Shown: positions 2,534-56,527 of the stretch, piece after piece | How positions within the stretch are numbered: position 1 is the first letter of the stretch | Layout: each line of letters opens with the position of its first letter | Assembly: GCF_023380205.1 (NCBI RefSeq) | Contig: NZ_CP093361.1 | Location: 1,640,172-1,704,171, forward strand | DNA: 64,000 bases | Direction: 5' to 3' | From: Nicoliella spurrieriana | GTDB lineage: Bacteria > Bacillota > Bacilli > Lactobacillales > Lactobacillaceae | Notes under the pieces: model-generated | What the model was told of the DNA's origin: nothing | Seen by the model: the letters and a program-made list of their open reading frames with translations, nothing else | Database searches by the model: none | Made by a program: the position numbers and the translations under genes

Positions 2534-2574
2534 TAAATAGAAAAATTAATCATATAACACTGGAGTTGGATGTA

Positions 2575-3028: not shown

Positions 3029-3056
3029 AAAGAAGCTAAAAAATTAGCTTCTTTTA
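3029..3056. terminator. Bidirectional terminator-like hairpin
   Basis: AAGAAGCTAA and TTAGCTTCTT form a stem with T-rich flank on the plus side and A/T-rich flank on the other. It overlaps the end of the minus-strand gene fragment at 3054. Confidence 0.6.
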
Positions 3057-3206
3057 ATATACATATTTATTAGCTTCTTCATCTACTTCAAATTTTGGTA
3101 ATTGATTGATTAAATCAACTGTGGGAGTGTCACAGACAATAACTGCAACGTCATATAATACATTATTAATAATAAATGCTTTAATTGGAGTAATATTAAA
3201 TGTGTA
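3054..3206 (-). pseudogene. C-terminal remnant of an unrecognised gene
   Basis: An open frame of about 50 codons reads TFNITPIKAFIINNVLYDVA... and ends FEVDEEANKYVY before TAA. It has no start codon: the frame upstream meets a TAA directly after an ATG. The composition is that of a real protein tail (hydrophobic core, acidic end), so it is most simply the end of a gene that has lost its beginning. The family was not recognised. Confidence 0.4.
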
Positions 3207-4692: not shown

Positions 4693-5781
4693 ATGAGTAA
4701 TGAAGTAGAATATGAAGATATTATAGCGTTCCATCCTGGATCATATATTGAAGATATTATTAATGATTTAAATATAACTCAAAATGAATTTGCTGAAAGG
4801 ATAGGTGTATCTAGTAAGACTATTAGTAAAATTATTAATGGTGAGGATAGAATTACAAGCGTGACTGCTAATAAGCTTGACAAAGCTACAGGTGTATCAT
4901 ATAAAACGTGGAATAGACTACAATCTATTTATGATGAAAAAATTTTAGAGATTAAAGATAGGAAAAAATATGATGAAGAGAAAAGAGTCTGTTCTCTTAT
5001 TGATATGGGCACCTTAAAAGACAATAACTTTGTTAATAATAAAAAAAGATATAAAGTTTCAGAAAAGATTACCGAGATAAGGAGAAAGTTAATATTATCT
5101 GACTTAACTAAATTGTACGATTTTAATTCTTTAGTTAGTTATAGAAAATCTGATAGTTTAACTAATAAAAAAAAGTCTATAGTTAATTCTAATGTTATGT
5201 TAGAGTTTGCTAGTAATGAAGCTAGAAATAAGACTGATACTAGATATAGTAAGGCAAAGTTAAGACAAGCATTACCTAAAATAAAAGGATTAATAATTGA
5301 ACCTAACGAGTCTTTTTATTTGAAACTAAAAGATATTTTATTAAAATGTGGAATTGTTCTAATTGCTATGCCAAGTTTAAAAGGTGCTGGTTTAAATGGT
5401 GCAACTAAGAAATTTAAAAACGGTAGCGTACTTTTATTAATTACTGATAGAAAAAAAACATCAGATATTTTTTGGTTTTCACTTGCTCATGAATTAGGAC
5501 ACATCATATATGAGGACTTTAGTTCAAATACTACTGATAAAATAGAGTATGAAAATCAAGAGAGAAAAGCTGATGATTTTGCATCAAACTTTTTAATTCC
5601 AAATACAGAATACAATAGCTTTATAGAAACTAATCTTTTTAATGAACATTCTATAAAAGAATTTTCAGAAAGAGAAAAAGTTTTACCTGGTATAGTAGTT
5701 GGAAGATTACAAAAAGACAATAAAATAAAATATGATAAATTTAATTATTTAAAAACTAAATATTATATTCATGGATATTAA
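4693..5781 (+). CDS. HigA-type antitoxin fused to ImmA/IrrE metalloprotease domain
   Basis: A 362-residue protein. Residues 16-75 form an XRE-type helix-turn-helix domain (FAERIGVSSKTISKIING). After a charged linker, residues 205-340 form an ImmA/IrrE (M78) peptidase-like domain with the zinc motif H-E-L-G-H at 266-270 and a downstream 'ERKADDFASNFLIP' that contributes the third ligand region. It is expected to neutralise the toxin encoded before it and to repress the operon by binding the palindrome at 4304-4326. The intact HExxH suggests real proteolytic activity. RBS is GGGGTGAT. Codon use is far more AT-rich than in the flanking chromosome, consistent with acquisition by transfer. Confidence 0.8.
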   Translation: MSNEVEYEDIIAFHPGSYIEDIINDLNITQNEFAERIGVSSKTISKIINGEDRITSVTANKLDKATGVSYKTWNRLQSIYDEKILEIKDRKKYDEEKRVCSLIDMGTLKDNNFVNNKKRYKVSEKITEIRRKLILSDLTKLYDFNSLVSYRKSDSLTNKKKSIVNSNVMLEFASNEARNKTDTRYSKAKLRQALPKIKGLIIEPNESFYLKLKDILLKCGIVLIAMPSLKGAGLNGATKKFKNGSVLLLITDRKKTSDIFWFSLAHELGHIIYEDFSSNTTDKIEYENQERKADDFASNFLIPNTEYNSFIETNLFNEHSIKEFSEREKVLPGIVVGRLQKDNKIKYDKFNYLKTKYYIHGY

Positions 5782-6701: not shown

Positions 6702-8279
6702 CTATATCTTCTTATGGTCAATTCCAATAATGTGTAAATTATCAGGCTGATGAGCATCAATCGTTCGATGTTGCTTCAAATAATTCATAATTAATTTAGG
6801 CATATCATCAGAATCACTTTGAATTACCTTATCCGTTGAAAACGTATCATATCCGCCAGTCCCAGTGCCACGGTATTGATTCATGACCACTTTAATGGTT
6901 TGATCATCTAGCAGTGGTTTCCCATGGTAAATTACCTTCACGACCCGTTGCCCTACTGGTTGATTCAAGTCAAAGGTATATTCAATTCCTGAATAATAAT
7001 CATAATTAAATAGCTGTAACTTAGGTTGTGAGAACGCCTTTGATACGGTTATCCTTCCGTCATCGTGCAACGTAAAGAAGCTAGCGCACTTTTCTAGTGC
7101 AAACTTTAGGTCAGCTCCACTAAGTTGCTCGACAACCAAAGTATTTGGAAATACATAGCTGTTTACCACGTTTCTGATGGTTACAGTCCTATCAAATCCA
7201 GTAATTTCATCATTGAACAGGGCGGTTCCGGAAATATCCACGCCCATTTTATCCATTTGAATCTTATTAATTAAGTCGAGATATGCATTTCCATGGAGTC
7301 TGGCATCCATATAATCTGTAATTCGCATGTCCCCATTGATTGTCGCCAATGGTTGATCCATCCACTTTTCAACGGTGGCTTGTAGTCCATTGACCACTTC
7401 AGATAATTTACTATCTACTGGATAGTTCGCGGTCTTAATTAACTTCGCATCTCGATTAACAATCTGTTTTTGAGCATCTAATTCTAAATCAATCTCGCCA
7501 ACGTTCGCACCACGATATCCGGGTTGTGTAATGGGAATGCCATGAACCAATTGCGCTAGTTCACGGTGCTGGTGCCCAGTTACTAATGCATCGATGCCAT
7601 CCACCGCTTTGAGTAACTCATCACCCTCATTTTCACCGGTTAGTTGTTCAGTTGGTTTGCCATTGTCTAAATCCCGTTCAAAGCCACCGTGGTAAGCAAC
7701 TACTACAATGTCAGCTTGTGATTTTAAGATTGGGACATAATGTTTAGCGGTTTGAACAGCCGATTGAAATTTAAGCCCCGCAATATTGGCAGGCTGTTCC
7801 CAATTGGGAACATATTGAGTGGTTAACCCCAAAATCCCAATTTTAACCCCATGGGATTCAATGATTTGATATGGGGCATCAATCATTTTGGAATGATTTG
7901 GACCCGTTATATTAGCATCTAAAATAGGAAAATTACGGTGCTGCCAGGTATCAGCAATGTAATCAACACCGTAGTTAAATTCATGATTGCCTAGAACCAT
8001 TGCATTCGGCTTTACATCGTTGACCATTTCACATAGCTTTTGATTCAAGTGCTCAGTATCATGAGTATTAAATGCATACGAAGTCAGCGGAGAACCCTCA
8101 ATAAAATCACCATTCTCAATGAATAGTACTATTTCATCTGGATTAGCTGCTCTTATCTGCTTAATAACACTTGCTGCCCTTAGATAACCAAACGGTTGTT
8201 GATCATTAACGCCGCTAAAATTAGTAGGAAACAGATAGCCATGGACATCGCTAGTGGATAGAATTTTGATTTTAACCAA
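6702..8279 (-). CDS. 5'-nucleotidase / 2',3'-cyclic phosphodiesterase family phosphoesterase
   Basis: A 525-residue two-domain protein. The N-terminal metallophosphatase domain (residues 1-300) shows the metal-binding motifs STSDVHG (9-15), 'ENGDFIEGSP', 'VLGNHEFNYG', 'YHGGFERD' and 'ALVTGHQHREL'. The C-terminal domain (about 310-520) is the 5'-nucleotidase substrate domain, with 'FPNTLVVEQLSGADLKFALE' and 'VVMNQYRGTGTGGYD'. Members remove phosphate from nucleotides or cyclic nucleotides. Most are exported, but this one has no signal peptide and should be cytoplasmic. It starts immediately after the stop of phnE (one base apart), so it is the last gene of the transporter operon and likely handles an imported phosphorylated compound. 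Confidence 0.85.
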   Translation of the reverse strand: MVKIKILSTSDVHGYLFPTNFSGVNDQQPFGYLRAASVIKQIRAANPDEIVLFIENGDFIEGSPLTSYAFNTHDTEHLNQKLCEMVNDVKPNAMVLGNHEFNYGVDYIADTWQHRNFPILDANITGPNHSKMIDAPYQIIESHGVKIGILGLTTQYVPNWEQPANIAGLKFQSAVQTAKHYVPILKSQADIVVVAYHGGFERDLDNGKPTEQLTGENEGDELLKAVDGIDALVTGHQHRELAQLVHGIPITQPGYRGANVGEIDLELDAQKQIVNRDAKLIKTANYPVDSKLSEVVNGLQATVEKWMDQPLATINGDMRITDYMDARLHGNAYLDLINKIQMDKMGVDISGTALFNDEITGFDRTVTIRNVVNSYVFPNTLVVEQLSGADLKFALEKCASFFTLHDDGRITVSKAFSQPKLQLFNYDYYSGIEYTFDLNQPVGQRVVKVIYHGKPLLDDQTIKVVMNQYRGTGTGGYDTFSTDKVIQSDSDDMPKLIMNYLKQHRTIDAHQPDNLHIIGIDHKKI

Positions 8280-35884: not shown

Positions 35885-37546
35885 CTATTGAATATAGCGG
35901 ATTGAATCACTGCCAATTTCCTTTAGCAAGTTAATCGTTTGCGGATTCCGGTATACCAGCATTAACATGTTTTCAGACCTAGTAATTCCAACGTATTCTT
36001 GTGCATAAAACCGATTGGCTTCCTCATCATTTAACATCTCAAACTTCACCGTACTATCCATGTTTAAAATTTCATCACGGCAATAGTAACTAGGCATTGA
36101 ATCGATACAATAAAACAAGACGTTCGGAAACTGGAGCCCCTTAATTTTATTCATCCCTAAAACATAAACATTAGCAGTCCCATCGTCTTCATCATCGTCT
36201 TTACCATACTCATCCTTAAAGGCAATGTCATTTTGCTTTAATAGGTTCGTAATTTCACGTTTATCCCGATCATTCCGACAAATGATTAATGAATCCTCAT
36301 TCGCCTTTACCGCCCGGTTTAAAAACCGAACGATGTAATCCGATTTAGAGTAGTTCACCGCATAGGGTTGATAACTATGCTTAGTCGATAGCTCTGGCTC
36401 AATGAACGTCGATTCCGTTTCCTTATAAGAGGCTGATTCAACATCAGAGGAGTAGTGTAACTTACAGTAATCTAGAAAATCCTTCCCGAGCTTAGAAATT
36501 TCATAGGTATTTCTGTAGTTATGCTTAATGCGATGACTATTTCCACGGTTCACCTGCAGCCCTAGTTTCTTCCAAGACATCCGACGTCCAAAGATGTTTT
36601 GTGATAAATCACCTAATAGTGTGAAGTAGGTATTGCCATCACGCTTCCGAATTTGATTTAACGCTTCGAACATTACCGGCGATAAGTCTTGGACTTCATC
36701 AACGATTACATAGTCATACTTTTGATTTTCGGGAATGTCGAGGTACTTCACCAAGCGATAAACATCATTATAGTCAAAAATCTTAGAAACGCCCCGGTCA
36801 GTTCTGTAACTATCCCGTTTTTCATAGTATTGGTAATAAATATCATAAACCAACTTCCGTTGAATCCCGCCCTTGTTTCCCAGGTTAAATGAACTTCGGC
36901 CAATTCGATCGGCATTTAAATAGGCGGCTTCATCATTATACGGAATCTCATTATCCTGCATCCAGTTAATTTCATCCCTGATTGCTAATTTGATGTCCTT
37001 ATAGCTCATTTGATCTTTTTTCCAAATGTTATTATCAGGATGCTCCTTTTTGGCTTCATCAATCAATTCATCTAACATTTTATTTACAACATTTTTATCC
37101 ATAGCAGTCGCTTCTGGGTAGTAATTGTACCCCCGTTTATTATAAGGACTGCGATTATGGACGTAGTCATCATACCGGTTATTAGCAGATTGTAAGAATT
37201 GATATTCATGCTCATTTAGATTTTTCAATTCTTGCGTCGGCCGGCAAGTATTCACTAACTCCTTAAAGTATGTATAAACAGTATTCACATCCACATTGTC
37301 GGTGTCGTTCGCTTGTTGTTTCACATTGCCCCTGATAAATGAATGAATCGCATCATTATAAGTCAGAATTAATACCCTTTTGGGCTCAAATAATGATGAA
37401 TTTGATAGCATAATGGAGCGATAAATGGCAATCACCGTTTTGCCACCTCCAGCAACACCTAAAACAATTTGATCTTGATTATCACTAGCCCGTAGCGCGG
37501 TGACTTGTTCATCAGTCAGTTCCTTTTCACTCGGTAAAACATTCAT
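35885..37546 (-). CDS. Superfamily 1 UvrD/Rep-like helicase
   Basis: A 553-residue SF1 helicase. Q-motif region 'LTDEQVTALRASDNQDQIVL', Walker A 'GVAGGGKT' (about 29-36), motif Ia 'RVLILTYNDAI', Walker B 'YVIVDEVQDLSP' (about 287), motif III 'LLGDLSQNIFG', motif IV 'NYRNTYEI', motif V 'NKIKGLQFPNVLFY' and motif VI 'EYVGITRSENMLMLVY'. Residues 95-230 are an inserted charged helical region. It is shorter than UvrD or PcrA and lacks a nuclease domain. It lies 114 bp after the McrC-like gene on the same strand and could take part in the same defence cassette; the link is positional only. Confidence 0.82.
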   Translation of the reverse strand: MNVLPSEKELTDEQVTALRASDNQDQIVLGVAGGGKTVIAIYRSIMLSNSSLFEPKRVLILTYNDAIHSFIRGNVKQQANDTDNVDVNTVYTYFKELVNTCRPTQELKNLNEHEYQFLQSANNRYDDYVHNRSPYNKRGYNYYPEATAMDKNVVNKMLDELIDEAKKEHPDNNIWKKDQMSYKDIKLAIRDEINWMQDNEIPYNDEAAYLNADRIGRSSFNLGNKGGIQRKLVYDIYYQYYEKRDSYRTDRGVSKIFDYNDVYRLVKYLDIPENQKYDYVIVDEVQDLSPVMFEALNQIRKRDGNTYFTLLGDLSQNIFGRRMSWKKLGLQVNRGNSHRIKHNYRNTYEISKLGKDFLDYCKLHYSSDVESASYKETESTFIEPELSTKHSYQPYAVNYSKSDYIVRFLNRAVKANEDSLIICRNDRDKREITNLLKQNDIAFKDEYGKDDDEDDGTANVYVLGMNKIKGLQFPNVLFYCIDSMPSYYCRDEILNMDSTVKFEMLNDEEANRFYAQEYVGITRSENMLMLVYRNPQTINLLKEIGSDSIRYIQ

Positions 37547-37660
37547 AAAAACACCCCATATCAGTCATAATTATTCAATCTATTTTATTTTTACCATTAT
37601 CATTTCAATAAATCAACCGTTAATTAACGCACTCTAATCATTCGCATCAAAGGCAATCGA

Positions 37661-39307
37661 TCAACAATGTAAAATTGTTACTAAATTCAAAATCGCCGTT
37701 ATTTGTGCGTCAATAAAATCATTAATTTGCCGCTTATCACTAGGAACTGCAAATACCGATTCCAATCCCCACCGCCTTAAATGAGCATCACTCGAAACCG
37801 GATTGATGATGCCGACCTTAGAAACCACCCGTAATAATTCACGCGGAATGTTTTCAACATAGTGAGCCGATTTAAACATGTCACTACTATTGACCTTATA
37901 GTAGTAGTCCAATAATTGCTGCATCGTATCCTTATTACGATCGTTGATAAAGTACTTAATTTCTCGATACTTAGTATCCATAATAAAACTACCGATCAAC
38001 GTATCATCAGCGTCATGATCGAAGAAATCGACCCTAAGATCAGGTTTGTAATGATTGCTATCGATCCACAGTTTTGACCGACCATTATCAACATGGTCCA
38101 TTTCATCATTATAGGTAATTACCGCCATCACGGTTAATTTCAGCGTCCCTAGCTCAACTGGCTTAGTCATTTTAACCTGCGTCATCTTAGGTAGCCCATC
38201 AATCGGCTGATTGTTAGCCATTAACTGCTCCGCTAAACTCCACAGTGGCACGTCTGAAAACCCCAGTTGGTGAAATGCGACAATGACGCTAATAAAACCC
38301 CAGTATTCATATAAATCATAACTGCTCCGCCGGGCAATCCCAAATTGATTCGATTGGGCTGCAATCGAATGCTGCTTGCGAAGGCAGTCCTCAACGCCAG
38401 TTAAAAATTGAGTCATGAATCGGTACCGGTAGTCAATTTGATGGGCTTGACGCCGCAACGGCCGGTCCGTGACCCGCTTCAGCCAGGAATGCGTCAGTAG
38501 CTGATTGATTAAATCAACGTATGGCGTGATGATTTCATCATTATTAGCATTCACTAGCGGGTTCAGAATGAAGTTTAACCGCCGAAGGGTCGCCTTTAAA
38601 TTTTGGTTTGCCTGCGTATTGAAGTTCACTTGATTCGATTGAACGTAGTAACCATCACTTGGCTTTTGTGCCATCCGGTTCAGTGACCGTCGATCAAGGC
38701 GTCCCGTCAATGCCGGACTCCAATGATGGCCGCGTTTAAGCTGATTTTGTGGATGCTGCTTTAAGTTTGCAACCACGCCGGTAAAGGCCTCTAAGTGCGC
38801 CTTTAAAAAGCGCATTAGTTCATCGATTAATAGGATTGACGCCACCCGGGCCCGCTTATTCGTAGCCACCTGGGATAATTTTTTAAACGCCGCATCAATA
38901 TCAAACACCATCTGATTATATTCTTGATCGGCATTTTCACCGGTCCCAAAGAACTTATTATTAAATTTTAACCAGCACTGGTAGCGGGTTTCATCTGCAC
39001 ACACCACTAATTTATAGTATCCAGGAATGTAAACATCCTTATTAATCTTAGTATCATAAAGAGAAACGGTGCAGTCACTAGCAAGATACTGCCGGCCCCG
39101 TTCATCACGGGCCAAGCTATTCAACGGGACGCGCTTCAGCTCTGATAACCCTTCCAGATACACCCGCTCATTTGCCCCCACGGTAATCGCCAAACTACAG
39201 TAGGTGTTCTCCTTAATTTGATAACAGGCAGTCCCAGCTTGAGTTAACTCTAACTGCTCCTTGCCAGAACGGCCCCGAATTAAAACCACCCTAGTTTGCA
39301 AATCCAA
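37661..39307 (-). CDS. mcrC: McrC-like restriction nuclease subunit (DUF2357 + PD-(D/E)XK)
   Basis: A 548-residue protein. The N-terminal two-thirds is DUF2357-like: beta-rich residues 1-120, then a helical part with conserved 'LYEYW' (about 332-336). The C-terminal PD-(D/E)XK nuclease shows P-D-L at 423-425 and 'FIMDTKYREIKYF' with Asp444-x-Lys446. This pairing with an McrB-type AAA+ protein defines McrBC-like systems, in which McrB loads on modified DNA and McrC cuts. It overlaps mcrB by 17 bases (start 39307, mcrB stop 39291-39293), so translation is coupled. The partner's target (methylated or otherwise modified DNA) is inferred from the family. Confidence 0.82.
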   Translation of the reverse strand: MDLQTRVVLIRGRSGKEQLELTQAGTACYQIKENTYCSLAITVGANERVYLEGLSELKRVPLNSLARDERGRQYLASDCTVSLYDTKINKDVYIPGYYKLVVCADETRYQCWLKFNNKFFGTGENADQEYNQMVFDIDAAFKKLSQVATNKRARVASILLIDELMRFLKAHLEAFTGVVANLKQHPQNQLKRGHHWSPALTGRLDRRSLNRMAQKPSDGYYVQSNQVNFNTQANQNLKATLRRLNFILNPLVNANNDEIITPYVDLINQLLTHSWLKRVTDRPLRRQAHQIDYRYRFMTQFLTGVEDCLRKQHSIAAQSNQFGIARRSSYDLYEYWGFISVIVAFHQLGFSDVPLWSLAEQLMANNQPIDGLPKMTQVKMTKPVELGTLKLTVMAVITYNDEMDHVDNGRSKLWIDSNHYKPDLRVDFFDHDADDTLIGSFIMDTKYREIKYFINDRNKDTMQQLLDYYYKVNSSDMFKSAHYVENIPRELLRVVSKVGIINPVSSDAHLRRWGLESVFAVPSDKRQINDFIDAQITAILNLVTILHC

Positions 39308-41174
39308 TCACCCTAATCTCTTTTCGCTTATGTGTTAGTTGCTGCCTAGTTACCTCAAAATCAGATAAATCGTGGTAGCGGTCCAATAATTGTTCAAATT
39401 GATTATCAGCACCTAATAACGGTGCTAACACCTGTTGACTACCGCGTACCTTCGGTAAAATCCGTTGGGCGATTTGGTAATCAAATGCCACCCGATCATC
39501 AAATTGAAAATCGGCATCATCGTACGCTTTAACGTTGCTCATAAACGTTTGAATGTTACTCAATGTGCGCCAGCTAAAGCCCAAGTCCGGAATGGCATTG
39601 TTAATTAACTGGTACAAATCATCGAAGAACTGTAAGTACAATTGATTAAATTGAAAGTCCCCGCGGTCAATCGTTTGTTGGTAGGTGTCAAATGATACTT
39701 CAGGACTATCAACGGTGGTGGGAGCTGGGAGGTTTAAGATGGCTGTAAAGGCCGTTTTAGATAGCTTGATCAAATTTGCCCGGTCCAAAACCTTATCTGA
39801 CAACTGGAACGTTGATTCATCAATGTTCATGGTCCCAATGAACCGCACGTTATTTGGAATCCAGACTTCCGCAGGATATTCATCCGCATTATCCACTGAT
39901 TGATGTGGGTTATACAGCCTAATTTTTTGGTCCTTTTTATCCCGTTCTAACACTGATAGGAACTGAGCAAAGTAAAATTCCACCCGTGCTAGGTTCATTT
40001 CGTCTAAGACGATTAAGTATAATTTATGGGGATTGGCATTTGCTGCGATGAGGGTATCAACGATCCCCGATGTGCTAGGCAGGTAGCGTTCTTTGGATAT
40101 GTCTACGAACCCTAATAAATCGGCATCACTTTGCCAGTCAGGACTCACCGCCACCATGTTGAACTGTTCTTCGTTTTTGATGCCCAGCGCGTCAGCATAT
40201 GCGGTCACAATTTTAGATTTTCCAGACCCACTTAATCCTGCTAAAATCGTCAGTGGAAAACTCTTAACCGAATTATGGAAGTTCGCAATGTCTTGCTTGG
40301 TAAATTCAAAGCGATATTGCTTTGCTAGCACTTCAGCAAAGTGGTACAAAACATCATCAGATTGTGAATTTACGATTGCTTGATTATACTCAGCATTAAA
40401 ATATTGATGCGACTGTTTAATGGTTCCCGAAGCAGAATCGCCCAAGCAGACGTTTTCAGGAATATAAAATAACGTATCGGAATCATTCAGATTGCTCAAC
40501 CAATCATCATTAATTTTAGTCACTTGGTACTGGTCGAATGGATCTGTAAACTGAAGCACCCCATCAGCTTGGACCTGAACATGCCCACTCAGTAGCATCG
40601 TTTCATTTTCGCCAGCCCAAATCATCCCATTGATCTGTACATTTTCATCAATGGTCGTGTGTTCATTCACCCGAACTTCCTGCCCAGATTCGATTGAATG
40701 CAGTAGCTCATCGACTCCGTAAATGCCAAGAGTGTTACTAGGGTTCAAAAACGCTAATGCTTGATCATAATTGGCTTCATGATCAGCATTGACTACCGCA
40801 ATTAATTTCGCATACCCGATTCGATCAGTTAAATTAGGTTCCGTAATGAATAACTTATTTCGGCAAATTTCAATCATTTGTTCCTTTAGCGCATTGACTT
40901 TGATGTCATTATCAAAGTCAGCGCTCTTAGTAATCTTCTGATCACGCATCATCTTAACAACATTTAAACCATTTATTTTAACCCCAACATCATGGATGGA
41001 TTTAAACTCTAGATAGATGTATTCATCTTTACGAGATGATAGATTTATCTTTTCTTCATCCGCCTGGTTTAAAAAGCCTTGATAAACTAACCGAAACGTA
41101 AAATAAATTGAATTATCTTTCATATTTTTATTCACAAAAAGATCCTGAATGGTTCCAATTGCTTCAGCTGCCAT
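39291..41174 (-). CDS. mcrB: McrB-like AAA+ NTPase
   Basis: A 627-residue protein. Residues 1-290 are a large non-catalytic N-terminal part of unrecognised folds, where other McrB proteins carry their DNA-recognition domain. Residues 300-600 are the AAA+ domain: Walker A 'LAGLSGSGKSK' (about 311-321), Walker B 'LIVLDEMNLARVEFYF' (about 387-402; the D-E-M-N form is diagnostic of the McrB clade) and sensor 1 'IGTMNIDEST' (M-N-x-D, about 447). It is expected to form a GTP- or ATP-driven ring that translocates on DNA and activates the nuclease next door. First gene of the cassette; no short antitoxin or regulator precedes it. Confidence 0.85.
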   Translation of the reverse strand: MAAEAIGTIQDLFVNKNMKDNSIYFTFRLVYQGFLNQADEEKINLSSRKDEYIYLEFKSIHDVGVKINGLNVVKMMRDQKITKSADFDNDIKVNALKEQMIEICRNKLFITEPNLTDRIGYAKLIAVVNADHEANYDQALAFLNPSNTLGIYGVDELLHSIESGQEVRVNEHTTIDENVQINGMIWAGENETMLLSGHVQVQADGVLQFTDPFDQYQVTKINDDWLSNLNDSDTLFYIPENVCLGDSASGTIKQSHQYFNAEYNQAIVNSQSDDVLYHFAEVLAKQYRFEFTKQDIANFHNSVKSFPLTILAGLSGSGKSKIVTAYADALGIKNEEQFNMVAVSPDWQSDADLLGFVDISKERYLPSTSGIVDTLIAANANPHKLYLIVLDEMNLARVEFYFAQFLSVLERDKKDQKIRLYNPHQSVDNADEYPAEVWIPNNVRFIGTMNIDESTFQLSDKVLDRANLIKLSKTAFTAILNLPAPTTVDSPEVSFDTYQQTIDRGDFQFNQLYLQFFDDLYQLINNAIPDLGFSWRTLSNIQTFMSNVKAYDDADFQFDDRVAFDYQIAQRILPKVRGSQQVLAPLLGADNQFEQLLDRYHDLSDFEVTRQQLTHKRKEIRVIGFAN

Positions 41175-42698: not shown

Positions 42699-43643
42699 TT
42701 AATTTTTAACACTTTGCAGCTGTTTTTTCGCCTTATTCAAAGTTTGCTTAGCCTGCTTAATTGCAGATTGCTTCCCTTTCTTTTCAGCTCGCTTTAAGTT
42801 CCGCTTAGCCTTAGTAACCGACTGCTTAGCTCGTTTTATTTTAGCAGCATTCTTACTTGGCTGTTGTTGATTATTAGTTTGTGAACTAGCATTACTAGTC
42901 TGAGTCTGATTGCTGCTAACACTACTCCCGTTTGAACTATCGGAATTTGCATCGCTATCAGTCGTACTGGGCGTATCACTAACATCTTCATGGAGGTAAT
43001 ATTTAAGAATGATATTGATTTCATTTAATAGTTTGCTTCTAGAAATTCCATCATGTTGATCAACGTGTTGGCCAAAGCCGTATTGCATAAAATCGCTATC
43101 ACTCATATTCGAAACATCACGCTTTAAATCACTAATCGAGTAGGTATTATCAATTATTGATGAGCTGGAAACGTACTTACTATAGAAATCATCAACATTA
43201 TTTCCATCTGAATCAAAACAAATATACGCCACTTTAATCGGTTGTAGATTAGAAACTCCACTATTAGGATTTGGCACATAGTTTTCCTCATAAATTGTAG
43301 TCAGGTAGTCCTTATCATTATCCTGATTATCATTAATGCCATTTGATTCAACAATATAAGGGGCCGTACTTCTAACCGCATATTGCTTAGATGTACTGTC
43401 GCCACCCAATTGATAAGCAGTCTGATCATAATTAATAAACGATGGGCCTCCATCAAAATTAGTATAGAAATTAATATACTGGGATGCTTCATCGGAAAGT
43501 GGTGCCACTAACATGGTCCGATACGGAACCCCAGCATATGCCACGGGACCCGAAATAAAGCTTGGATTAACGGTGTTCATAACTGCGATTCCACCAGTAG
43601 TGAGTGCTGCTAACGTTGCTAAATAGATCATTGATTTTTTCAT
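42699..43643 (-). CDS. Secreted protein with basic coiled-coil tail
   Basis: A 314-residue exported protein starting MKKSMIYLATLAALTTGGIA; the ATG at 43643 lies 8 bases after GGGGG. A signal peptide runs to about residue 38 (AYA). Residues 40-220 form an unrecognised, beta-like domain. A Ser/Asn/Gln linker is at about 225-262, and residues 265-314 are a highly basic Lys/Ala helix (K-R-A-K-Q-S-V-T-K-A-K-R-N-L-K-R) able to bind teichoic acid or nucleic acid. It probably stays at the cell wall. Family not recognised. Confidence 0.65.
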   Translation of the reverse strand: MKKSMIYLATLAALTTGGIAVMNTVNPSFISGPVAYAGVPYRTMLVAPLSDEASQYINFYTNFDGGPSFINYDQTAYQLGGDSTSKQYAVRSTAPYIVESNGINDNQDNDKDYLTTIYEENYVPNPNSGVSNLQPIKVAYICFDSDGNNVDDFYSKYVSSSSIIDNTYSISDLKRDVSNMSDSDFMQYGFGQHVDQHDGISRSKLLNEINIILKYYLHEDVSDTPSTTDSDANSDSSNGSSVSSNQTQTSNASSQTNNQQQPSKNAAKIKRAKQSVTKAKRNLKRAEKKGKQSAIKQAKQTLNKAKKQLQSVKN

Positions 43644-44113: not shown

Positions 44114-45732
44114 ATGAAAAATAGCTATAAGGTAATATTAGGAAGTGTCTTTACCGGAATTGCAATCACACTAGCTGCATGTGGTAACAGCAATTCAGAT
44201 AGCGCTAGTCAAAAGAAACAGGTATTAAATTGGACTGAACCAACCCCATTAGCAACAAATGACTTATCTAAGGCTACTGATACTTTAAGTTTCAACGTCC
44301 TAATGAATACTGGTGATGGATTATATCGTTTAGATAAAAACGGTACTCCACAATTAGCAATTGCTAAAAAGGCAACCGTATCTAAAGATGGCAAGGTGTA
44401 TACCTTTGATTTAAGAGATGATGCTAAATGGTCAAATGGTGATCCAGTAACCGCGGCTGATTTCGTTTATTCATAGCAAAGAACAGTTAATCCTAAAACT
44501 GCGTCACAAGATGCTTTTTATTTAGACCAAGTTCAAAATGCTAAGGAAATTAATGCAGGTAAGAAACCATTGAGTAGTCTTGGCATTCACGCATTAGGCA
44601 AATATAAACTTCAAGTTACCCTTACCAAGCCAGTTACATACTTCAAGAAATTGTTATCATGGCCATTATTCTACCCAGTTAATAAATACGGAAAGCAGTT
44701 TGGTACTAACAGTAAATATAATGTTTATGACGGGCCATTTAAATTAACTAAATGGAATGGCTCCAGCAATAGTTGGACCCTCGTTAAAAATAAATATTAT
44801 TGGGATAAACAAGCAGTCAAGTTAACTAAAATCAATGACCAAGTAGCTGAGTCAACCGAGACTAGTTATAACTTATATAAGTCCAATAAGGTTGATGAAA
44901 CCCTATTGACAGGGCAACAAATCAAAAATAATAAAAATAACCCTGATTTTGTAAAACGAGTTCCAAATACACTAGTTCGATTAGACCTAAATCAAACTAC
45001 CGTTCCGGCATTCAAAAATATTAACGTCCGGAAAGCAATTTCGCTTGCCATCAACAGACAACAATTAACTAATGATGTCCTACAAGATGGATCAGTTCCC
45101 GCTAAGGGATTTGTCCCTTCCAACATGGGTACTAATCCTAAAACAGGAGCACAATTTAATAATGAGTCATACGTTAAAAATAGTGTTTCTAGTAATCTAA
45201 GTGAAGCTAAGAAGCTATTAGCAAAGGGATTTAAAGAAACTAATACTAAAAAGTTGAATTTCAAACTACTAGTTGCTGAAACTGATACTAATAAACAAAC
45301 CGCTGAATTTATCCAAGGTGCATTGGAGAAACTTCCAAACGTAAAGGTATCAATTTCTGTTGTCCCATTTGCTCAATTAATTGCTACTCAACAAAAGAAA
45401 AACTTCCAAGCAACGTTAGCTAACTGGCAATCTGTTTTCGCTGATCCAATTAATTTCTTAGATGTGTTTGAAAGTAACTCCAGCTACAATACCGTTGGTT
45501 ACAAAAACAGTGAATTTGATAAATTAACTGAAGAAAGTGAAGATGAATTAGCTAACCAACTGAAAAGCGTTGGGATGCATTAGTAAAAGCTGAAAAGGTC
45601 TTAATGAATGATCAGGCCACGATTCCACTCTACCAAGCTGATAAATCACAACTGCTTAGAAGCGATGTTAAGGACGTTAGCTTTAATCCAGCTGGTGTTC
45701 CATATGATTTCAAGAATGCTTATATCAAGTAA
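44114..45732 (+). pseudogene. oppA: Oligopeptide-binding protein OppA, broken by a stop and a frameshift
   Basis: The frame begins with a lipoprotein signal (ITLAAC) and OppA landmarks 'VLNWTEPTPLATNDLSKATD', 'GDGLYRLDKNGTPQLAIAKK', 'WSNGDPVTAADFVYS'. A TAG at 44474-44476 replaces the expected Trp of 'F-V-Y-S-W-Q-R'. The frame continues through 'TVNPKTASQDAFYLDQ...' to 'EDELANQ', where one base is missing near 45560: 'RWDALVKAEKVLMNDQATIP' and the C-terminus to 45732 are in another frame. A full-length OppA (about 540 residues) would result otherwise. It would bind peptides for an Opp transporter not present in the window. Confidence 0.85.
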
Positions 45733-45797: not shown

Positions 45798-46408
45798 TGT
45801 GCATATTTATTATGCCACTATGATTAAATTCATGAATAAAATTAGTTCAATTTATTGACATAAGAGCATCTAATTAAATGAACATGTTTTGTAGATATCC
45901 CTTCTTTAGTTGTTTGAGATGATCAAGTTTGGATTGTTGAAGATCAATTTGTTGATCTAAATTTTGGAAGAATGCACCGATTTTTTTTTGTTCTTTGGGG
46001 TGTGGAATCAATAATTTTAATTTAGAGTAATCTTTAAAATAAATATGTGGAATCCCCGTTCCAATCTTAAATAATCTGAAGTTTATATTTTGTAATTTGT
46101 AAAATAGATAATTTAAATCCACTCCATTTGGATGGATAATTTCCATCGTACTAATTACAGATGTCATCCCACGGCGAAGAAATGTTTTTCCAACGTTAGA
46201 TCCATCCTTTATTATTGAAATATATTCATCCTTACTCTGATAACTATTCAAAAATCCTATTAATTTATTGACGTCATACACTGGATATTTTCCATTTTTT
46301 TTAACATCTTTTACACCTATATTAGATGATTGATTATAAGAAATATCTTTTAACGATACATTTAATAAATCATCATTGAATGTATGAAACCTTAACAAAT
46401 TCACTGAA

Positions 46409-46536
46409 ACTCCCTTTGCAGGATATAGTTTTTGCAAGAAACCGCGCTTCAGCTGCTTTAAGTGAGTAACTTTTTGAGATTGGAGTTCAATTAGTTGATC
46501 AAGTTTTTGTAAAAATAACCCAATTTTTTTCTGTTC
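46409..46536. repeat. Central hsdS inverted repeat, copy on the minus-strand gene
   Basis: About 127 bp matching 47682-47808 in inverted orientation at roughly nine of ten positions. Exact blocks include GATCAACTAATTGAACTCCA and TTGCAAAAACTATATCCTGC. It encodes the central helical spacer of HsdS. Confidence 0.85.
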
Positions 46537-46768
46537 TTTATCATTGGGAATATAGACAAGTAAATTTTTTATATCATTTGAATTTATTGATAAAAATGTT
46601 GATCCAGAACTATATCTTTTCCAAAAGTTTCTATTTTTTAATGATAGTAGTAAAAAATAAATAAAAAGATTACCTGATATTGAACAAACTCCACGCCCCA
46701 AAACAATCTCTGTAAATTGATTAATTGCTACTTCACCAACAGGAGCCCTAACAGTCATTATTATTTCA

Positions 46769-46776
46769 TTTTTTTT
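46769..46776. repeat. A8 homopolymer at the hsdS frameshift
   Basis: Eight A in the coding strand within TCAAAAAAAATGAAATAATAATG. In the +1 length the frame joins '...LSKK' to 'NEIIMTVRAPVGE'. Confidence 0.8.
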
Positions 46777-47029
46777 GATAGTTTAGTTATTTCAGTAGTA
46801 AATATTCTTGGATTAATATGTCCATTTTTGATATCTGCATTACCTTGAACTAATACATTATATTCATTGTTATTTATGTAATTTTTAGAGCTAGGAGATT
46901 GTCCCATAATAATTTTGAAATATTCTCCAAACTTTACTAATTTCCAATATTTATGAAATTCTTTAAATCTATTTCTTGGACATAATTTACCCATTAATAA
47001 TACCTCATTTTCATATCTATATATTTATT

Positions 47030-47069
47030 TTTACGTTTTAATTAAATAAAATCCTAATTAAAACGTAAA
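47030..47069. promoter_or_regulatory. Perfect inverted repeat between the divergent hsdS genes
   Basis: TTTACGTTTTAATTA and TAATTAAAACGTAAA are a 15-bp perfect palindrome with a 10-base spacer in the 200-bp region between the two hsdS starts. Possible operator, recombination site or divergent-promoter element. Confidence 0.6.
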
Positions 47070-47198
47070 TAGTGACATACAAATGCATATAAATTAGCGT
47101 TTATATTTCCTCATATCTAATTTTATATTGATTTAAGTATATCATCATTTCGTAATAATAGTGAAATGTATAAATATTATTAAGGAATGGTATTAAAA

Positions 47199-48467
47199 AT
47201 GAATTTACCCTCGTTAAGATTCGAAGGCTATACGGATTTGTGGAAAAAAACTACTTTAAACAAGTTATCCAAAATAATTAGTGGTGGAACTCCTAATACA
47301 AATAATATTAGTTATTGGAATGGAAGTATAAACTGGTTTTCACCCATGGAAATTGGAAAGGATATTTTTGTTTATAATAGTCAAAAAAAGATAACTACTT
47401 TAGGTCTCCAAAAATCTTCTGCAAAAATTTTGCCCGTTGGAACCATACTTTTTACATCTAGAGCAGGAATTGGAAAAACTGCTATTCTTTCTAAAGAAGC
47501 GTGTACTAATCAAGGATTTCAGTCAATTGTTCCTAAAAAAAAATTATTGGATTCATATTTTACTTTTTCAATTACAAACAAACTTAAAAAATATGGAAAT
47601 AAAATGGGATCTGGATCCACTTTTAATGAAATATCTGGAAAGCAAATGGGTAAAATGAAAATATTTATTCCAGAATTTCATGAACAACAAAAAATTGGTT
47701 CTTTTTTCCAAAAACTAGATCAACTAATTGAACTCCAATCTCAAAAGGTTATTCACCTGAAGCAACTGAAGCGCGGATTTTTGCAAAAACTATATCCTGC
47801 AAAGGGAGAAATTCTGCCATTACTTAGATTTAATAAATTTAATGGGAATTGGAATTTAGATAAGCTAAACAAACTCGGAAAAAGTTATGGTGGACTTACA
47901 GGAAAAAATAAAGATGATTTTGGTCATGGTAATGGTAAATATATAACATATTTAAATGTTTACAATAATGCTATAGCTAGAAAAGACGGAGTAAAAAGTA
48001 TAGAAGTGGATTACAAACAAAATTGCGTTAATAAACACGACATTCTGTTCACTATTTCTTCTGAAACTCCTGAAGAAGTCGGTTTATCATCTATATGGGA
48101 CTATAATGAAAATGATGTTTATTTAAACAGCTTTTCGTTTGGATATAGACCATTAATTCATTTTGATAATTATTTTTTAGGATACTATTTAAGATCTGAT
48201 CAATTCAGAAGTTCAATATTTCCGCTTGCACAAGGAATATCTAGATATAACATCTCAAAAAATAACTTACTAAAATTAAAAATAATTTTTCCTAGTATTA
48301 AAGAACAACAAAAAATCGGATCACTCTTCCAAAACCTAGACCAACAAATATCCCTCCAACAATCCAAACTCGAGCATCTCAAACAACTCAAAAAGGTTAT
48401 CTTCAAAATATGTTCATCTAAAAAAGACTCATTCTCCCGCGAGAGTGCGTCTTTAGTTTACGATTAA
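47199..48467 (+). CDS. hsdS: Type I restriction specificity subunit, C-terminus altered
   Basis: A 422-residue HsdS starting MNLPSLRFEGYTDLWKKTTL at ATG 47199 (AAGGA 12 bases upstream; an ATG at 47187 abuts that site). TRD1 spans about 10-170 ('ILPVGTILFTSRAGIGKTAI'), the central spacer 175-225 ('KLDQLIELQSQKVIHLKQLK'), TRD2 about 225-370, and the distal spacer 'NLDQQISLQQSKLEHLKQLK'. Compared with the other copy, one G is missing near 48395, so the usual ending 'KKGYLQNMFI' becomes 'KKVIFKICSSKKDSFSRESA' and runs on to the hsdM stop. The two recognition domains are intact, so it is probably the working specificity subunit. Its codon use is more AT-rich than hsdM. Confidence 0.85.
   Translation: MNLPSLRFEGYTDLWKKTTLNKLSKIISGGTPNTNNISYWNGSINWFSPMEIGKDIFVYNSQKKITTLGLQKSSAKILPVGTILFTSRAGIGKTAILSKEACTNQGFQSIVPKKKLLDSYFTFSITNKLKKYGNKMGSGSTFNEISGKQMGKMKIFIPEFHEQQKIGSFFQKLDQLIELQSQKVIHLKQLKRGFLQKLYPAKGEILPLLRFNKFNGNWNLDKLNKLGKSYGGLTGKNKDDFGHGNGKYITYLNVYNNAIARKDGVKSIEVDYKQNCVNKHDILFTISSETPEEVGLSSIWDYNENDVYLNSFSFGYRPLIHFDNYFLGYYLRSDQFRSSIFPLAQGISRYNISKNNLLKLKIIFPSIKEQQKIGSLFQNLDQQISLQQSKLEHLKQLKKVIFKICSSKKDSFSRESASLVYD
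47682..47808. repeat. Central hsdS inverted repeat, copy on the plus-strand gene
   Basis: Partner of 46409-46536. Recombination between them would exchange the TRD1 halves and the promoter region of the two genes. Confidence 0.85.
48423..48454. terminator. Terminator-like hairpin between hsdS and hsdM
   Basis: AAAGACTCATTCTC-CCGC-GAGAGTGCGTCTTT, 14 bp with one mismatch. It lies just after the normal hsdS stop position (48419-48421) and before the convergent hsdM end, but falls inside the frameshifted hsdS tail. T-runs are short, so efficiency is uncertain. Confidence 0.55.
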
Positions 48468-50087
48468 TTATTTATCTTGATCATGTTGGTCCGTCCAAAC
48501 CAATTCAGCCTTCATCTTGTTGAATTCGGCTTCAACCTTTTCATATTCAGCATCAATTTCAGCAATTTTTTGCTCTTCAGCTTGAATATCAATTTCTGGT
48601 TCTGGTTCAAAAGTATCTACATACCGCGGAATGTTTAAGTTAAAGTCATTTTCTTCAATTTCTTCGGGTGTTGCAACATGCGCATACTTATCAACGTCTT
48701 GCCGTTTTTGATAGGTATCAATAATCAAATCAATATCTGCTGGTTTCAATACGTTTTGATTCTTACCCTTTTCAAAGTGCTTACTAGCATCAATGAAGAG
48801 CACATCCCGATTATCCCGTTGCTTCTTCAATACAATTACCACCGTTGGAATTGAGGTCGAGTAGAATAGCTTTTCTGGCAAGCCAATCACTGCATCAATT
48901 TGATTCTTCTTAAGCAATGCTTCCCGGATTTTCCCTTCCTTAGCACCACGGAATAACACCCCATGTGGTAACACAATTGCCATCGTCCCAGTGGGTTTCA
49001 AATGGAAAAGGCCATGAAGTAGGAATGCGTAGTCAGCTTTACTCTTTGGCGGTAGTGCTCCATATTCTTTGAATCGAGGATCCTTTAATTTACCCTCGTT
49101 ATTGTCCCAATGCGCAGAGTATGGTGGGTTTTCTACCACTGCATCTACAAAGCGAGGGTGTTCAATTCCATTTTCGTCAATTCCATCAGGCCAATCGCTT
49201 TCTAGTGTGTCACCATTTCTAAGTTGCATATTCTGGTAACCAATCCCATGCATCATTAAGTTCATTCGAGCTAAGTTATAAGTTGTTGTGTTTAATTCTT
49301 GCCCATGGAACCGCACTTTCCCCTTCTTTTGCCCATTGGGTACTTCATCTTGAACCGTCAATAGCAATGATCCCGACCCCATTGCAGGATCTAAAACATC
49401 AAATGGGTCGTCATTATCTGGTAACCCAAGCGTTACTAGTTTAGCAAGAATTTCGGACACTTCATGGGGCGTGTAAAATTCTCCCGCCTTCTTACCGGAG
49501 TTAGAGGCAAATTGGGCAATTAGGTATTCATATACATCCCCTAAAATATCATGCCCACTTTCGTCATTATAGTTAAATTTATCAACCAAGTTCACAATTT
49601 TACTAAGTGCCTTAGCCCGATCATTAGTGTTATTACCAAGTCGACTGTTTCCAAGGTTAATGTCCGCAAACACCCCCCGGAAATCCTTTTCGGCTCCGTG
49701 GTTCAATGATGCATTTTCATTAAAATGATCAAACATGTTTTGGAAATCTTCGGGAGCAATGGTGCCGTTCTCCACTTTCTTAACGATGGTGGCCCAAGTG
49801 TCTTCCGGACGAATCGCATATCCATCACGTTCTGCAATGGCTTCGAGATAATCTTCAACACCATCTTCAGCAGCTGCTTCCGCATATGCATCGTTAATAT
49901 CTTGACCTGGTTTAACATCGAAGAAATCTTGGGACTTCAGGAATGCTTCTTGGTGTTCTGAAAGGTATCTATAAAACATGAACCCTAAAATATAGGTTTG
50001 GAAATCGACCGCATCCATGTTCCCCCGTAATTCATTAGCCATATTCCATAATTGACTCGTAATATCTGCAGCTTTATTTTCTGCCAT
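48468..50087 (-). CDS. hsdM: Type I restriction-modification N6-adenine methyltransferase
   Basis: A 539-residue M subunit. The N-terminal helical domain ('QLWNMANELRGNMDAVDFQT') leads to the methyltransferase domain: 'GEFYTPHEVSEILAKLV', SAM-binding 'VLDPAMGSGSLLLTV' (about 235) and catalytic N-P-P-Y in 'VENPPYSAHWDN' (about 316). C-terminal residues 480-539 form a charged coiled coil for contact with HsdS. With two M and one S subunit it methylates adenine in the target; with HsdR it restricts unmodified DNA. It lies 11 bases after hsdR in the same transcript, and hsdS is not downstream in the same direction. Confidence 0.93.
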   Translation of the reverse strand: MAENKAADITSQLWNMANELRGNMDAVDFQTYILGFMFYRYLSEHQEAFLKSQDFFDVKPGQDINDAYAEAAAEDGVEDYLEAIAERDGYAIRPEDTWATIVKKVENGTIAPEDFQNMFDHFNENASLNHGAEKDFRGVFADINLGNSRLGNNTNDRAKALSKIVNLVDKFNYNDESGHDILGDVYEYLIAQFASNSGKKAGEFYTPHEVSEILAKLVTLGLPDNDDPFDVLDPAMGSGSLLLTVQDEVPNGQKKGKVRFHGQELNTTTYNLARMNLMMHGIGYQNMQLRNGDTLESDWPDGIDENGIEHPRFVDAVVENPPYSAHWDNNEGKLKDPRFKEYGALPPKSKADYAFLLHGLFHLKPTGTMAIVLPHGVLFRGAKEGKIREALLKKNQIDAVIGLPEKLFYSTSIPTVVIVLKKQRDNRDVLFIDASKHFEKGKNQNVLKPADIDLIIDTYQKRQDVDKYAHVATPEEIEENDFNLNIPRYVDTFEPEPEIDIQAEEQKIAEIDAEYEKVEAEFNKMKAELVWTDQHDQDK

Positions 50088-53712: not shown

Positions 53713-54285
53713 ATGAGAGTTAAAACAGTTTTGTCCGCTCCTGAATTAAATGATGCTAATAAATCAGATAGTTATTTTTTATCTGGCGATGCATTATCAT
53801 ATCAACTAACGGGGAAGCATAATGAGGGTCTATTATCACTATCAGAATATTTACATTATTTTGATTACTTAAGGGTACTAACCAATAATCAATTTGTTTT
53901 AGATGGCCAAGCCGGATTCGGAAATCCACTTAATACTTTTTATTCTGTTACTGAAATGGAGAATCATGGAGCTGATATTATTCTAATTAATGATCAGACC
54001 CATCCATCGCATAGTAAGTTAGAACAACGCCATCCGGAACAGTTAACTGAATTTGCTGGTAAATTAACAGCAGCAATGGATGCACACCATAGCGAATATT
54101 CAAGCATCTGGATCAAATTAGATTGTGTTAATCAATACACTGAAGAAGAATTAGAAAACCGTCTATTGGTTGCAAAATATCTCGGGGTTGAAAACGTTGT
54201 TGTTGATAAAAATAATTCGATGCCAAATGTTGATGGGATGAATTACCATCAATTTGATTATGATACACAAACAATTTTAAATTAA
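53713..54285 (+). CDS. Degenerate PEP-mutase/isocitrate-lyase superfamily protein
   Basis: A 190-residue protein starting MRVKTVLSAPELNDANKSDS (ATG behind AAGGGATG). It parallels the next gene in part: 'NNQFVLDGQAGFGNPLNTFY' aligns with 'PVFVDGDTGYGDTENVARTV', and 'HGADIILINDQTHPSHSKLE' with 'AGAAGIFLEDQVWPKRCGHM'. The metal-binding Asp of D-G-D becomes Gln and the E-D and K-R-C-G-H active-site segments are N-D and H-S-K, so catalysis is unlikely. It is also shorter, covering only part of the barrel. It may be a non-catalytic partner or a decayed copy. 21 bases before the lyase gene in one operon. Confidence 0.55.
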   Translation: MRVKTVLSAPELNDANKSDSYFLSGDALSYQLTGKHNEGLLSLSEYLHYFDYLRVLTNNQFVLDGQAGFGNPLNTFYSVTEMENHGADIILINDQTHPSHSKLEQRHPEQLTEFAGKLTAAMDAHHSEYSSIWIKLDCVNQYTEEELENRLLVAKYLGVENVVVDKNNSMPNVDGMNYHQFDYDTQTILN

Positions 54286-54306
54286 TTTTACTGGAGGGAT
54301 TAAATC

Positions 54307-55224
54307 ATGCGTGACTATGATGAAAAAAGGACTCAATTTAAGAAGTTAACTAGTGGCGACCGAATTTTAAGTATGGTTGTTGCTCCTGATGCATTAGCCG
54401 CAAAAGTTGCTGAGAAAACGGGATTTAAAGCCATTTTTGTTGCAGGATACGCAACCGCTGCAAGTACTCGTTCGCTACCTGATCGCGGTATTTTAGATTT
54501 TGGTGAAATGCTTAGTAAACTAAGAGAAATTGTAGCTACAGTTGATATCCCAGTCTTTGTAGATGGTGATACTGGTTATGGAGATACAGAAAACGTTGCC
54601 CGGACCGTTCGTGCATATGAAAATGCGGGTGCAGCTGGTATTTTTTTGGAAGACCAAGTATGGCCAAAGAGATGTGGGCATATGGCCGGCAAAAGCGTGG
54701 TGCCTGCTGATGAATTAGCTGACAAAATTAAAACTGCGGTTAAAGCTAGGCGTCATTCTAATTTTACAATTATGTCTAGAACCGACGCGCGACAAATGTA
54801 TGGTCTAGAAGAGGCAATCAAGCGGAGTCATCAATATCAAGATGCTGGTGCTGATATGATTTTTATTGAAGCCCCGCAAAGTAAGGACGAGTTAAGAGAA
54901 ATTGCAAATGAATTCCCAAATACACCATTAATGGCCAATATGATTGAAGACGGTGCCACTCCAATGACATCAGTTGACGAATTAAAATCAATGGGCTACA
55001 GCATTGCAGTTCATCCCACTGCGCTTACATATGCCCACGCATATGCTGATAAGGAATTTCTACAAGAGTTACATACTGTAGGCAGAACTGAAAAAACTAA
55101 GCAACACATGGTAACATTTAACGATTTCAATGATTTCGTTGGTTTGAATGATTTAAATACGATTGAGCAAAAATATTCAAAAGCGCCAATGCAGGATATG
55201 CTCAATCAATTAAAGTTAAAGTGA
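54307..55224 (+). CDS. PEP-mutase/isocitrate-lyase superfamily lyase (methylisocitrate lyase-like)
   Basis: A 305-residue TIM-barrel enzyme. 'VAPDALAAKVAEKTGFKAIF' and 'SGYATAAS'-like 'VAGYATAASTRSLPDRG' start the barrel. Metal-binding 'VDGDTGYG' is at 85-92, and the flexible catalytic loop 'LEDQVWPKRCGHMAGK' with Lys121-Arg-Cys123-Gly-His is intact, as are 'IMSRTDAR' and 'FIEAPQS'. K-K-R-C-G-H is the signature of isocitrate/methylisocitrate lyases and the related dimethylmalate/citramalate lyases and oxaloacetate hydrolases. It cleaves a C-C bond in a 2-hydroxy or alkylmalate-type acid. The exact substrate cannot be deduced. GGAGGGATT site. Confidence 0.75.
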   Translation: MRDYDEKRTQFKKLTSGDRILSMVVAPDALAAKVAEKTGFKAIFVAGYATAASTRSLPDRGILDFGEMLSKLREIVATVDIPVFVDGDTGYGDTENVARTVRAYENAGAAGIFLEDQVWPKRCGHMAGKSVVPADELADKIKTAVKARRHSNFTIMSRTDARQMYGLEEAIKRSHQYQDAGADMIFIEAPQSKDELREIANEFPNTPLMANMIEDGATPMTSVDELKSMGYSIAVHPTALTYAHAYADKEFLQELHTVGRTEKTKQHMVTFNDFNDFVGLNDLNTIEQKYSKAPMQDMLNQLKLK

Positions 55225-55237
55225 GGAGTGGTTTAAT

Positions 55238-56527
55238 ATGATAAGTAAAGAAAAATTAATGTTAGGACAACGAATGGATACGGCTAAGGAGTCTCCATTA
55301 TTTTACAAGGTATTTATGCTTGTGGGTGCCGGATTACTTTTGGATAGCTCAGATGTTTATATGGCAAGTAACGTTAACTCCAGTATGATTGTCAGTAAAT
55401 TTGCAACTTTATCACAAGGCTCAGCTTTTTTATCATCATGATTCTTGGGCCTTTTCATTGGATCGGTTCTTGCCGGTCACTTGGGTGATTTTTATGGTCG
55501 TAGTAAAACATTCCAATGGAACTTATTGGTTTTTGGAATCGCTACTTTATTAGCTGCATTTGCTCCGAATGTTTATTTTCTAATTGCAATGCGCTTCATC
55601 GCAGCAGTGGGACTTGGAGCAGAAGCCGTAACCGGATTTTCTATGATTAATGAATTTGCCCCCGTCCAAAATCGTGGTAAATGGAGTGGTACCGTATCCG
55701 TATTTGCAAATTTGGGTGCCCCATTTGGTTTCTTATTATCAACCCTTTTAATTACCCATGCTGGATGGAGATCGATGTTTTTAGTATTAGGATGTTTGGC
55801 AATCGTTTTATGGTTCGCTAGAAGACATCTACCAGAATCACCACGGTGGCTAATGATTCATGGTAAAGAAGATGAAGCACAGACGATCATTGAAAAGCTA
55901 GAAAAGGATGGGCATTACGATGTTAAAAACATTTCTGAGGATTCTTCATCGCATGTTAGTCGTAAAAGAGGATTGCTGATTGCAATTACAGCTATCTCAG
56001 CCACCCTTCTTTGCCAATATATGTTTACATCATGGGTCCCAACACTATTATTAGGTAAGGGACTAAACATTGTCCATTCTATGTGGTTCTCAACCATTAT
56101 GATGGCTGGAGCACCACTTGGCGCACTAGTTGGAATGCTATTAGTTGATAAAGTTGGCCGTAAAAAAACAATCGTACCTAGTTTTGTTTTAATCGCATTC
56201 GCGGGAATTACATATGCATTTCAAAATACTAGTACCGGAATTTTAGTTAATGGATTTATTCTAACTGCTCTAATGTATGTATCAATTGCTAGCACCATTT
56301 CAGTGTATGCTCCTGAACTATTTTCAACTGACTTTAGATTCCGTGGTACTGGATATGCAAATGGTTTTGCTAAACTATTGATTACCCTTTCACCTTACAT
56401 CGTTTTATTCACAGTTTCGTCATTTGGTCAGGAAACATTATTTGTAATTATTGGTGTAATTGCAGTATTAGCAGCAATCGTTATTGCAGTGTTTGGTCCA
56501 GAAACCAAGGGACAAAGACTTGGTTGA
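55238..56527 (+). pseudogene. MFS organic-acid/sugar-type transporter interrupted by TGA
   Basis: The two open parts are one reading frame: 'MISKEKLMLGQRMDTAKESP' ... 'AFLSS', then TGA at 55439-55441, then 'FLGLFIGSVLAGHLGDFYGR' (motif A) on to 'FGPETKGQRLG', the usual C-terminus of the sugar-porter/MHS group (P-E-T-K-G). The TGA stands where homologs in this position commonly have an aromatic residue such as Trp (TGG). Without it a 12-helix transporter of about 430 residues results. It starts 14 bases after the lyase gene and would carry that pathway's acid. Confidence 0.75.

Follow-up and report, generated by a model that had tools for sequence, protein, structure and literature searches.

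Does a pair of hsdS genes that face away from each other and share inverted repeats constitute a switch of DNA specificity, or might such repeats be no more than what two related genes in opposite orientation look like? The question is raised by a Type I restriction-modification (R-M) locus of Nicoliella spurrieriana on the larger contig (1.71 Mb) of its 2.05-Mb genome, for which the original prediction was that recombination between the repeats would exchange target-recognition domains (TRDs). We analysed it within a window of 64,000 nucleotides (the whole stretch of DNA studied; 37% GC). Inverting hsdS loci are already well known, lactobacilli included; what is unusual here is a head-to-head hsdS pair straight after hsdM, without an integrase or a co-directional hsdS adjacent to hsdM. 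We suggest, with a probability of roughly 0.6, that this is an integrase-less, rearranged and decaying two-S Type I R-M locus, which is fixed or only rarely inverts. This reading is better than that of a working switch, which is possible but unsupported.

Anatomy of the locus and its neighbourhood

The features of the locus are listed below.

45874–45996, minus strand: C-terminal inverted repeat (CR2), hsdS2 arm; 82.9% identical to 48300–48421, longest exact run 14
45874–46994, minus strand: hsdS2, split specificity gene; ORFs 46761–46994 (77 aa) and 45874–46758 (294 aa) each match HsdS
46410–46536, minus strand: central inverted repeat (CR1), hsdS2 arm; 127 bp, 89.0% identical to 47682–47808
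46769–46776, minus strand: T8/A8 run at the −1 frameshift in TRD1 of hsdS2; 11 nt, as against 12 nt in homologues
46995–47198, no strand: divergent intergenic region; 204 bp, 18% GC, defined from sequence and GC
47030–47069, no strand: perfect 15-bp palindrome, TTTACGTTTTAATTA-N10-TAATTAAAACGTAAA; fold z of the region −3.1
47199–48467, plus strand: hsdS1, full two-TRD specificity gene with a frameshifted C-terminus; PF01420 twice, PADLOC Specificity_I
47682–47808, plus strand: CR1, hsdS1 arm; partner of 46410–46536
48300–48421, plus strand: CR2, hsdS1 arm; partner of 45874–45996
48390–48396, plus strand: one-base frameshift (AAAAAGG) in hsdS1; from alignment with the hsdS2 copy and the HsdS endings of relatives
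48423–48456, no strand: hairpin with an A-run on one side and a T-run on the other; fold z −2.5, plus-strand terminator-like site at 48430–48447
48468–50087, minus strand: hsdM, methyltransferase subunit, 539 aa, intact; TIGR00497, PF02384, PF12161
50099–53212, minus strand: hsdR, restriction subunit, 1037 aa, intact; Pfam HSDR_N, SWI2_SNF2, T1R_D3-like, EcoR124_C

The Type I gene set is complete, with hsdR, hsdM and hsdS together at the locus: the score of hsdR against NCBIfam TIGR00348 exceeds the curated cut-off, hsdM reaches 411 bits against TIGR00497 (cut-off 243), and Pfam Methylase_S is found on each S gene. The named relatives of hsdM are mainly Lactobacillaceae (Ca. Paralactobacillus, Companilactobacillus and Lactobacillus), with a maximum identity of 72%. 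GC content is about 28–30% in the S genes versus 41% in hsdM, a large gap, yet one inside the range of the relatives (rank 6 of 91). The layout is M> <S S>: hsdS1 and hsdM lie tail to tail with abutting stop codons, and the two S genes diverge head to head. It had been stated that hsdM is followed by no co-directional hsdS; this needs correction in that hsdS2 does share the strand of hsdM, yet it starts 1.47 kb past hsdM, with hsdS1 and the terminator in between, and no such gene adjoins hsdM. By its sequence, the hairpin at 48423–48456 is probably a bidirectional terminator shared by hsdRM and hsdS1. Any promoters for both hsdS genes should sit in the divergent intergenic region, where a consensus promoter scan gave matches no commoner than in shuffled sequence. 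The palindrome within this region may be an operator or a hairpin; as a site of recombination with other copies it was rejected, being single copy genome-wide.

In the only other surveyed genome of the genus (G032), the flanks 42702–43643 and 53716–56524 are conserved with a spacing of about 7 kb that is filled by unrelated genes, and the hsd system is absent, which indicates that the oppA-hsdS-hsdM-hsdR block is lineage-specific. The oppA-like solute-binding protein gene (44114–45731, plus strand) is a pseudogene, with an in-frame TAG near 44474–44476, probably in place of a Trp codon, and a second lesion, a frameshift, near 45560–45583. The MFS transporter gene (55238–56524, plus strand) has an in-frame TGA close to its start, and its orthologue in G032 (L182:11585-12874) is full-length (429 aa). 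These lesions show that point mutations have truly degraded genes in this part of the window. Beside the hsd locus there is possibly a second defence cluster (35885–41174, minus strand), with genes for a McrB-like AAA protein (39291–41174; Pfam AAA_5, PADLOC PDC-M26A), for a 548-aa protein without a family match (37661–39307), which overlaps the end of the McrB-like gene, and for a UvrD-like helicase (35885–37546).

Inverted repeats, recombinases and related loci

The repeats are as predicted: the S genes face apart and share a central inverted repeat of about 127 bp, and their C-terminal spacers are homologous in inverted orientation. The match between the CR1 arms (E about 1e-43, blastn) is well past chance, and includes exact runs at 46472–46500 (29 bp) and 46410–46437 (28 bp); a published screen for inverting hsdS loci called for one or more perfect inverted repeats with a length of 20 bp or above (PMC7394358), a length that both runs exceed. 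What CR1 encodes is the spacer helix KLDQLIELQSQKVxHLKQLKRGFLQKLYPAKG. Its arms are nearest each other, with any other fetched locus at 74% or less, and they differ at 14 of 127 sites; 10 of the 14 are third codon positions, and four of 42 codons are non-synonymous. Having diverged, mostly at third positions, the arms are not being maintained identical. On the sequence evidence, the CR1 copies are old paralogues constrained at the protein level and not recent exchanges, and both CR1 and CR2 are conserved spacer helices of paralogous HsdS, explained by gene homology: any hsdS pair of the same family that faces opposite ways would display such inverted repeats.

We compared the layout with related loci in a set of 104 hsdM loci, mostly from Lactobacillaceae (the window, 100 genome regions and three named loci, with at least one duplicate). 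A co-directional hsdS lies directly 3' of hsdM in 98 of them, and in 58 an integrase is encoded within 6 kb; these integrases belong to a single conserved family and are about 60% identical to one another. The commonest multi-S arrangements are M> S> I> <S and M> S> <I <S. S genes occur on both strands in 50 loci, 47 of which have an integrase; the window is among the three without. The arrangement M> <S S> was found in the window alone. Divergent <S S> pairs do occur elsewhere, beyond an M-proximal S and with an integrase present (e.g. L059-L061, L063, L126, L136 and L138); these lactobacillar loci are three-S loci of the form M> S> I> <S S>, in which the divergent S genes are often partial. 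Repeats in integrase-bearing relatives range from about 20 bp exact to more than 120 bp, and the repeats of some inverting loci that do encode an integrase equal those here in shortness or divergence (e.g. L055, L074 and L008), so repeat divergence alone does not prove inactivity. In L081 two hsdS genes share a perfect inverted repeat of 171 bp (5124–5294 and 7309–7479), and the integrase gene is present as two fragments on opposite strands, as though an inversion had split it; L140 and L142 likewise have integrase pieces on opposite strands.

No recombinase gene lies in the window, as had been noted from the sequence alone. The genome search that had been proposed did yield four tyrosine recombinases, namely two XerC/D-like proteins, one phage-like integrase with internal stops, which is on the other contig, and one 203-aa protein; each is either on the other contig or separated from the locus by over 400 kb, and none is of the hsdS type. 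A 13-row profile of hsdS-type integrases (A1) found no such gene in the genome, its top matches being the phage-like integrase (100 bits) and the XerC/D-like proteins, and the idea of an hsdS integrase encoded elsewhere in the genome was rejected, only these proteins being found. A serine invertase was likewise rejected, as there is no serine recombinase anywhere in the genome, and no integrase remnant was found. The WEQRK-coding motif, the one most often common to inverted S genes where an integrase is encoded, does not occur here; since WEQRK-coding words are also present in S genes of integrase-free loci, this is weak evidence. For the CreX core ATTATGGGAA, the locus offers no paired near-match.

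Comparison with known systems helps to weigh these absences. The LreRMII system of Lactobacillus reuteri, from the same host family, is likewise a Type I R-M system with two hsdS genes that have common CR1 and CR2; its TRD rearrangement was demonstrated and attributed to inverted repeats, with LsrA as the recombinase, whose gene lies between the two hsdS, whereas the N. spurrieriana locus lacks such a gene and has its hsdS pair head-to-head, with a frameshift in each (PMC6122466). The SpnIII (cod) locus of Streptococcus pneumoniae, with CreX (PsrA), also combines hsdR-hsdM with several hsdS genes and inverted repeats (15, 85 and ~300 bp), and differs in that hsdM is transcribed together with an intact hsdS, the donors are silent and inversion has been demonstrated (PMC6620402, PMC4948785). 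Recombinase-independent inversion was seen there in strains without creX (PMC6620402, PMC4948785): the 85- and 333-bp repeats invert without CreX or RecA, and CreX is strictly needed for the 15-bp repeat (PMC6620402). The missing enzyme thus lowers, and does not exclude, the chance of inversion in N. spurrieriana.

Frameshifts and the predicted outcome of an inversion

The two S genes are FRAMESHIFTED, and in this assembly each carries one frameshift. The minus-strand gene had been placed at 45874–46758, with its start too far downstream: the true start of hsdS2 is the ATG at 46994, preceded by a GAGG ribosome site; its 5' part spans 46764–46994 (77 aa), and the gene is split by a one-base deletion at the T8 run. 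When the 77-aa and 294-aa pieces were queried one by one (tblastn), both matched the same plasmid-borne HsdS genes (e.g. NC_004960 and NC_007191) in a single frame, 12 nt apart (2070–2288 and 2301–3191 in NC_004960), so the gene is contiguous there; the gap between the pieces in the window is 11 nt. The ATG at 46758 is 2 nt past the stop of the upstream fragment.

The other S gene starts at the ATG at 47199, with PSLRF at its N-terminus, and retains both TRDs despite its frameshifted C-terminus. KKxxLQxMF plus a final residue is the HsdS ending in nearly all of the ~100 relatives listed, and hsdS2 ends in KKGYLQNMFI; hsdS1 instead reads KKVIFKICSSKKDSFSRE... after the frameshift and continues into KKVIFKICSSKKDSFSRESASLVYD across the terminator, because one base is absent at 48390–48396. 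The alternative frame gives the familiar end with a TAA at 48419–48421, immediately 5' of the hairpin, and homologues align with hsdS1 up to residue ~401 only (the comparison of C-terminal ends used the aligned homologues L101 and L102 together with the ~100 HsdS endings).

What would an inversion do to these lesions? As the genes are head-to-head, a crossover at CR1 shifts TRD1 and the promoter region together; in known systems with convergent genes it is the C-terminal halves that move, whereas here it is the N-terminal TRDs and the promoter region. Simulated at either exact CR1 block, the inversion turns the left gene into an uninterrupted HsdS (a 385-aa ORF, 381 aa from MNLP) made of the first half of hsdS1 and the second half of hsdS2, ending in KKGYLQNMFI and lying on the strand of hsdM, and the right gene gathers both frameshifts. 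It would be tempting to take this restoration as a trace of past inversion. However, with two lesions in two genes, lesions that are now split and joined after inversion are an outcome of about 50% by chance, and such a coin flip is in itself no proof.

Alternative readings and the likely origin of the locus

The simulated outcome bears most directly on an unlikely alternative, that of a slow but working switch, ON/OFF as well as of specificity, that has no dedicated recombinase and in which recombination at CR1 flips a 1.4-kb core with the TRD1s and both promoters. The sequenced isomer would then be the one without a fully normal hsdS, the other would have one intact hsdS co-directional with hsdM, and the second gene would act as donor and lesion sink. 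The gathering of both frameshifts in one gene is what would be expected of lesions built up in a silent partner before an inversion, the chance level just given weakening this point; the length of the exact CR1 runs and the pneumococcal precedent also speak for a slow switch, and the missing recombinase, the 89% identity of the arms, the lack of the WEQRK-coding motif and the unpaired CreX core speak against it. That the locus forms a recombinase-free module, in which promoters travel with the N-terminal TRDs and which toggles between no normal hsdS and one intact hsdS aligned with hsdM, the other gene being the lesion sink, appears quite unlikely. Exchange of TRDs through the repeats, as originally predicted, is permitted by geometry and by repeat length; the lack of an integrase at the locus and of a co-directional hsdS adjacent to hsdM, the diverged repeats and the frameshifts in both genes weigh against it.

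Both lesions are single-base and homopolymer-adjacent (T8 and A5GG), and could be assembly errors, in which case neither gene would be broken and the locus could have two specificities side by side. The corresponding proposal, of two specificity subunits that are co-expressed from the divergent promoter region and share hsdM and hsdR and give two simultaneous methylation motifs, is also improbable. In its favor, each hsdS has its own start and ribosome site, with a 204-bp divergent intergenic region between them, and in lactococci alternative HsdS subunits work with resident HsdM and HsdR. However, the nonsense codons of the neighbouring genes (the TAG of oppA and the TGA of the MFS gene) are not homopolymer errors, and the large nearby genes are intact, giving no sign of a high indel error rate.

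Another way in which the frameshifts could be functional is slippage, with T8 in TRD1 of hsdS2 (and A5GG in hsdS1) toggling each gene in the manner of the hsdS poly-G of NgoAV in Neisseria gonorrhoeae. The T8 run coincides exactly with the frameshift, and re-initiation at the ATG at 46758 could yield the 294-aa product, with NgoAV as the precedent (cited in PMC7394358). In NgoAV, too, a homopolymer frameshift splits hsdS and a downstream ORF remains. The NgoAV lesion leads to a truncated subunit with its own activity, whereas hsdS2 is interrupted within TRD1, at an ordinary A8 run. Slippage is very unlikely here: neither hsdS gene has a long G or C tract, and A/T runs of at least 8 are not enriched (the count is reached in 203 of 1000 dinucleotide and 415 of 1000 synonymous-codon shuffles), so poly-A tract enrichment was discarded as a sign of slippage. 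That the head-to-head layout, unique among the 104 loci, was produced by misassembly of a locus that contains repeats is scarcely credible, since the locus is interior to the 1.71-Mb contig, the abutting stops of hsdM and hsdS1 beside a shared terminator are hardly the product of a chimeric join, and the repeats have diverged too far to mislead an assembler.

Thus, we return to a decaying two-S locus. As judged from the related loci, the most likely origin of M> <S S> is a rearrangement of the inverting type common in Lactobacillaceae: either M> S> I> <S S> lost its 'S> integrase>' part, or the first S of M> S> S> was flipped. With the integrase gone and the repeats 89% identical, the locus would be fixed, or would invert rarely through general recombination. 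In the sequenced state, with hsdS2 broken in TRD1 and hsdS1 lacking a normal C-terminal end, the system may be decaying and HsdS function lost, or it may rely on hsdS1 with its altered tail. Any inversion at CR1 would swap TRD1 and promoters, and would leave one HsdS intact and the other gene broken twice.

The locus may show the fate of an inverting locus after loss of its recombinase. It would be a clean test case for recombinase-independent inversion, as the other isomer is predicted to regain an intact hsdS. If no inversion occurs, it would be a cautionary case, in which the inverted repeats of opposite-facing hsdS genes stem from homology and are not by themselves evidence of a switch.
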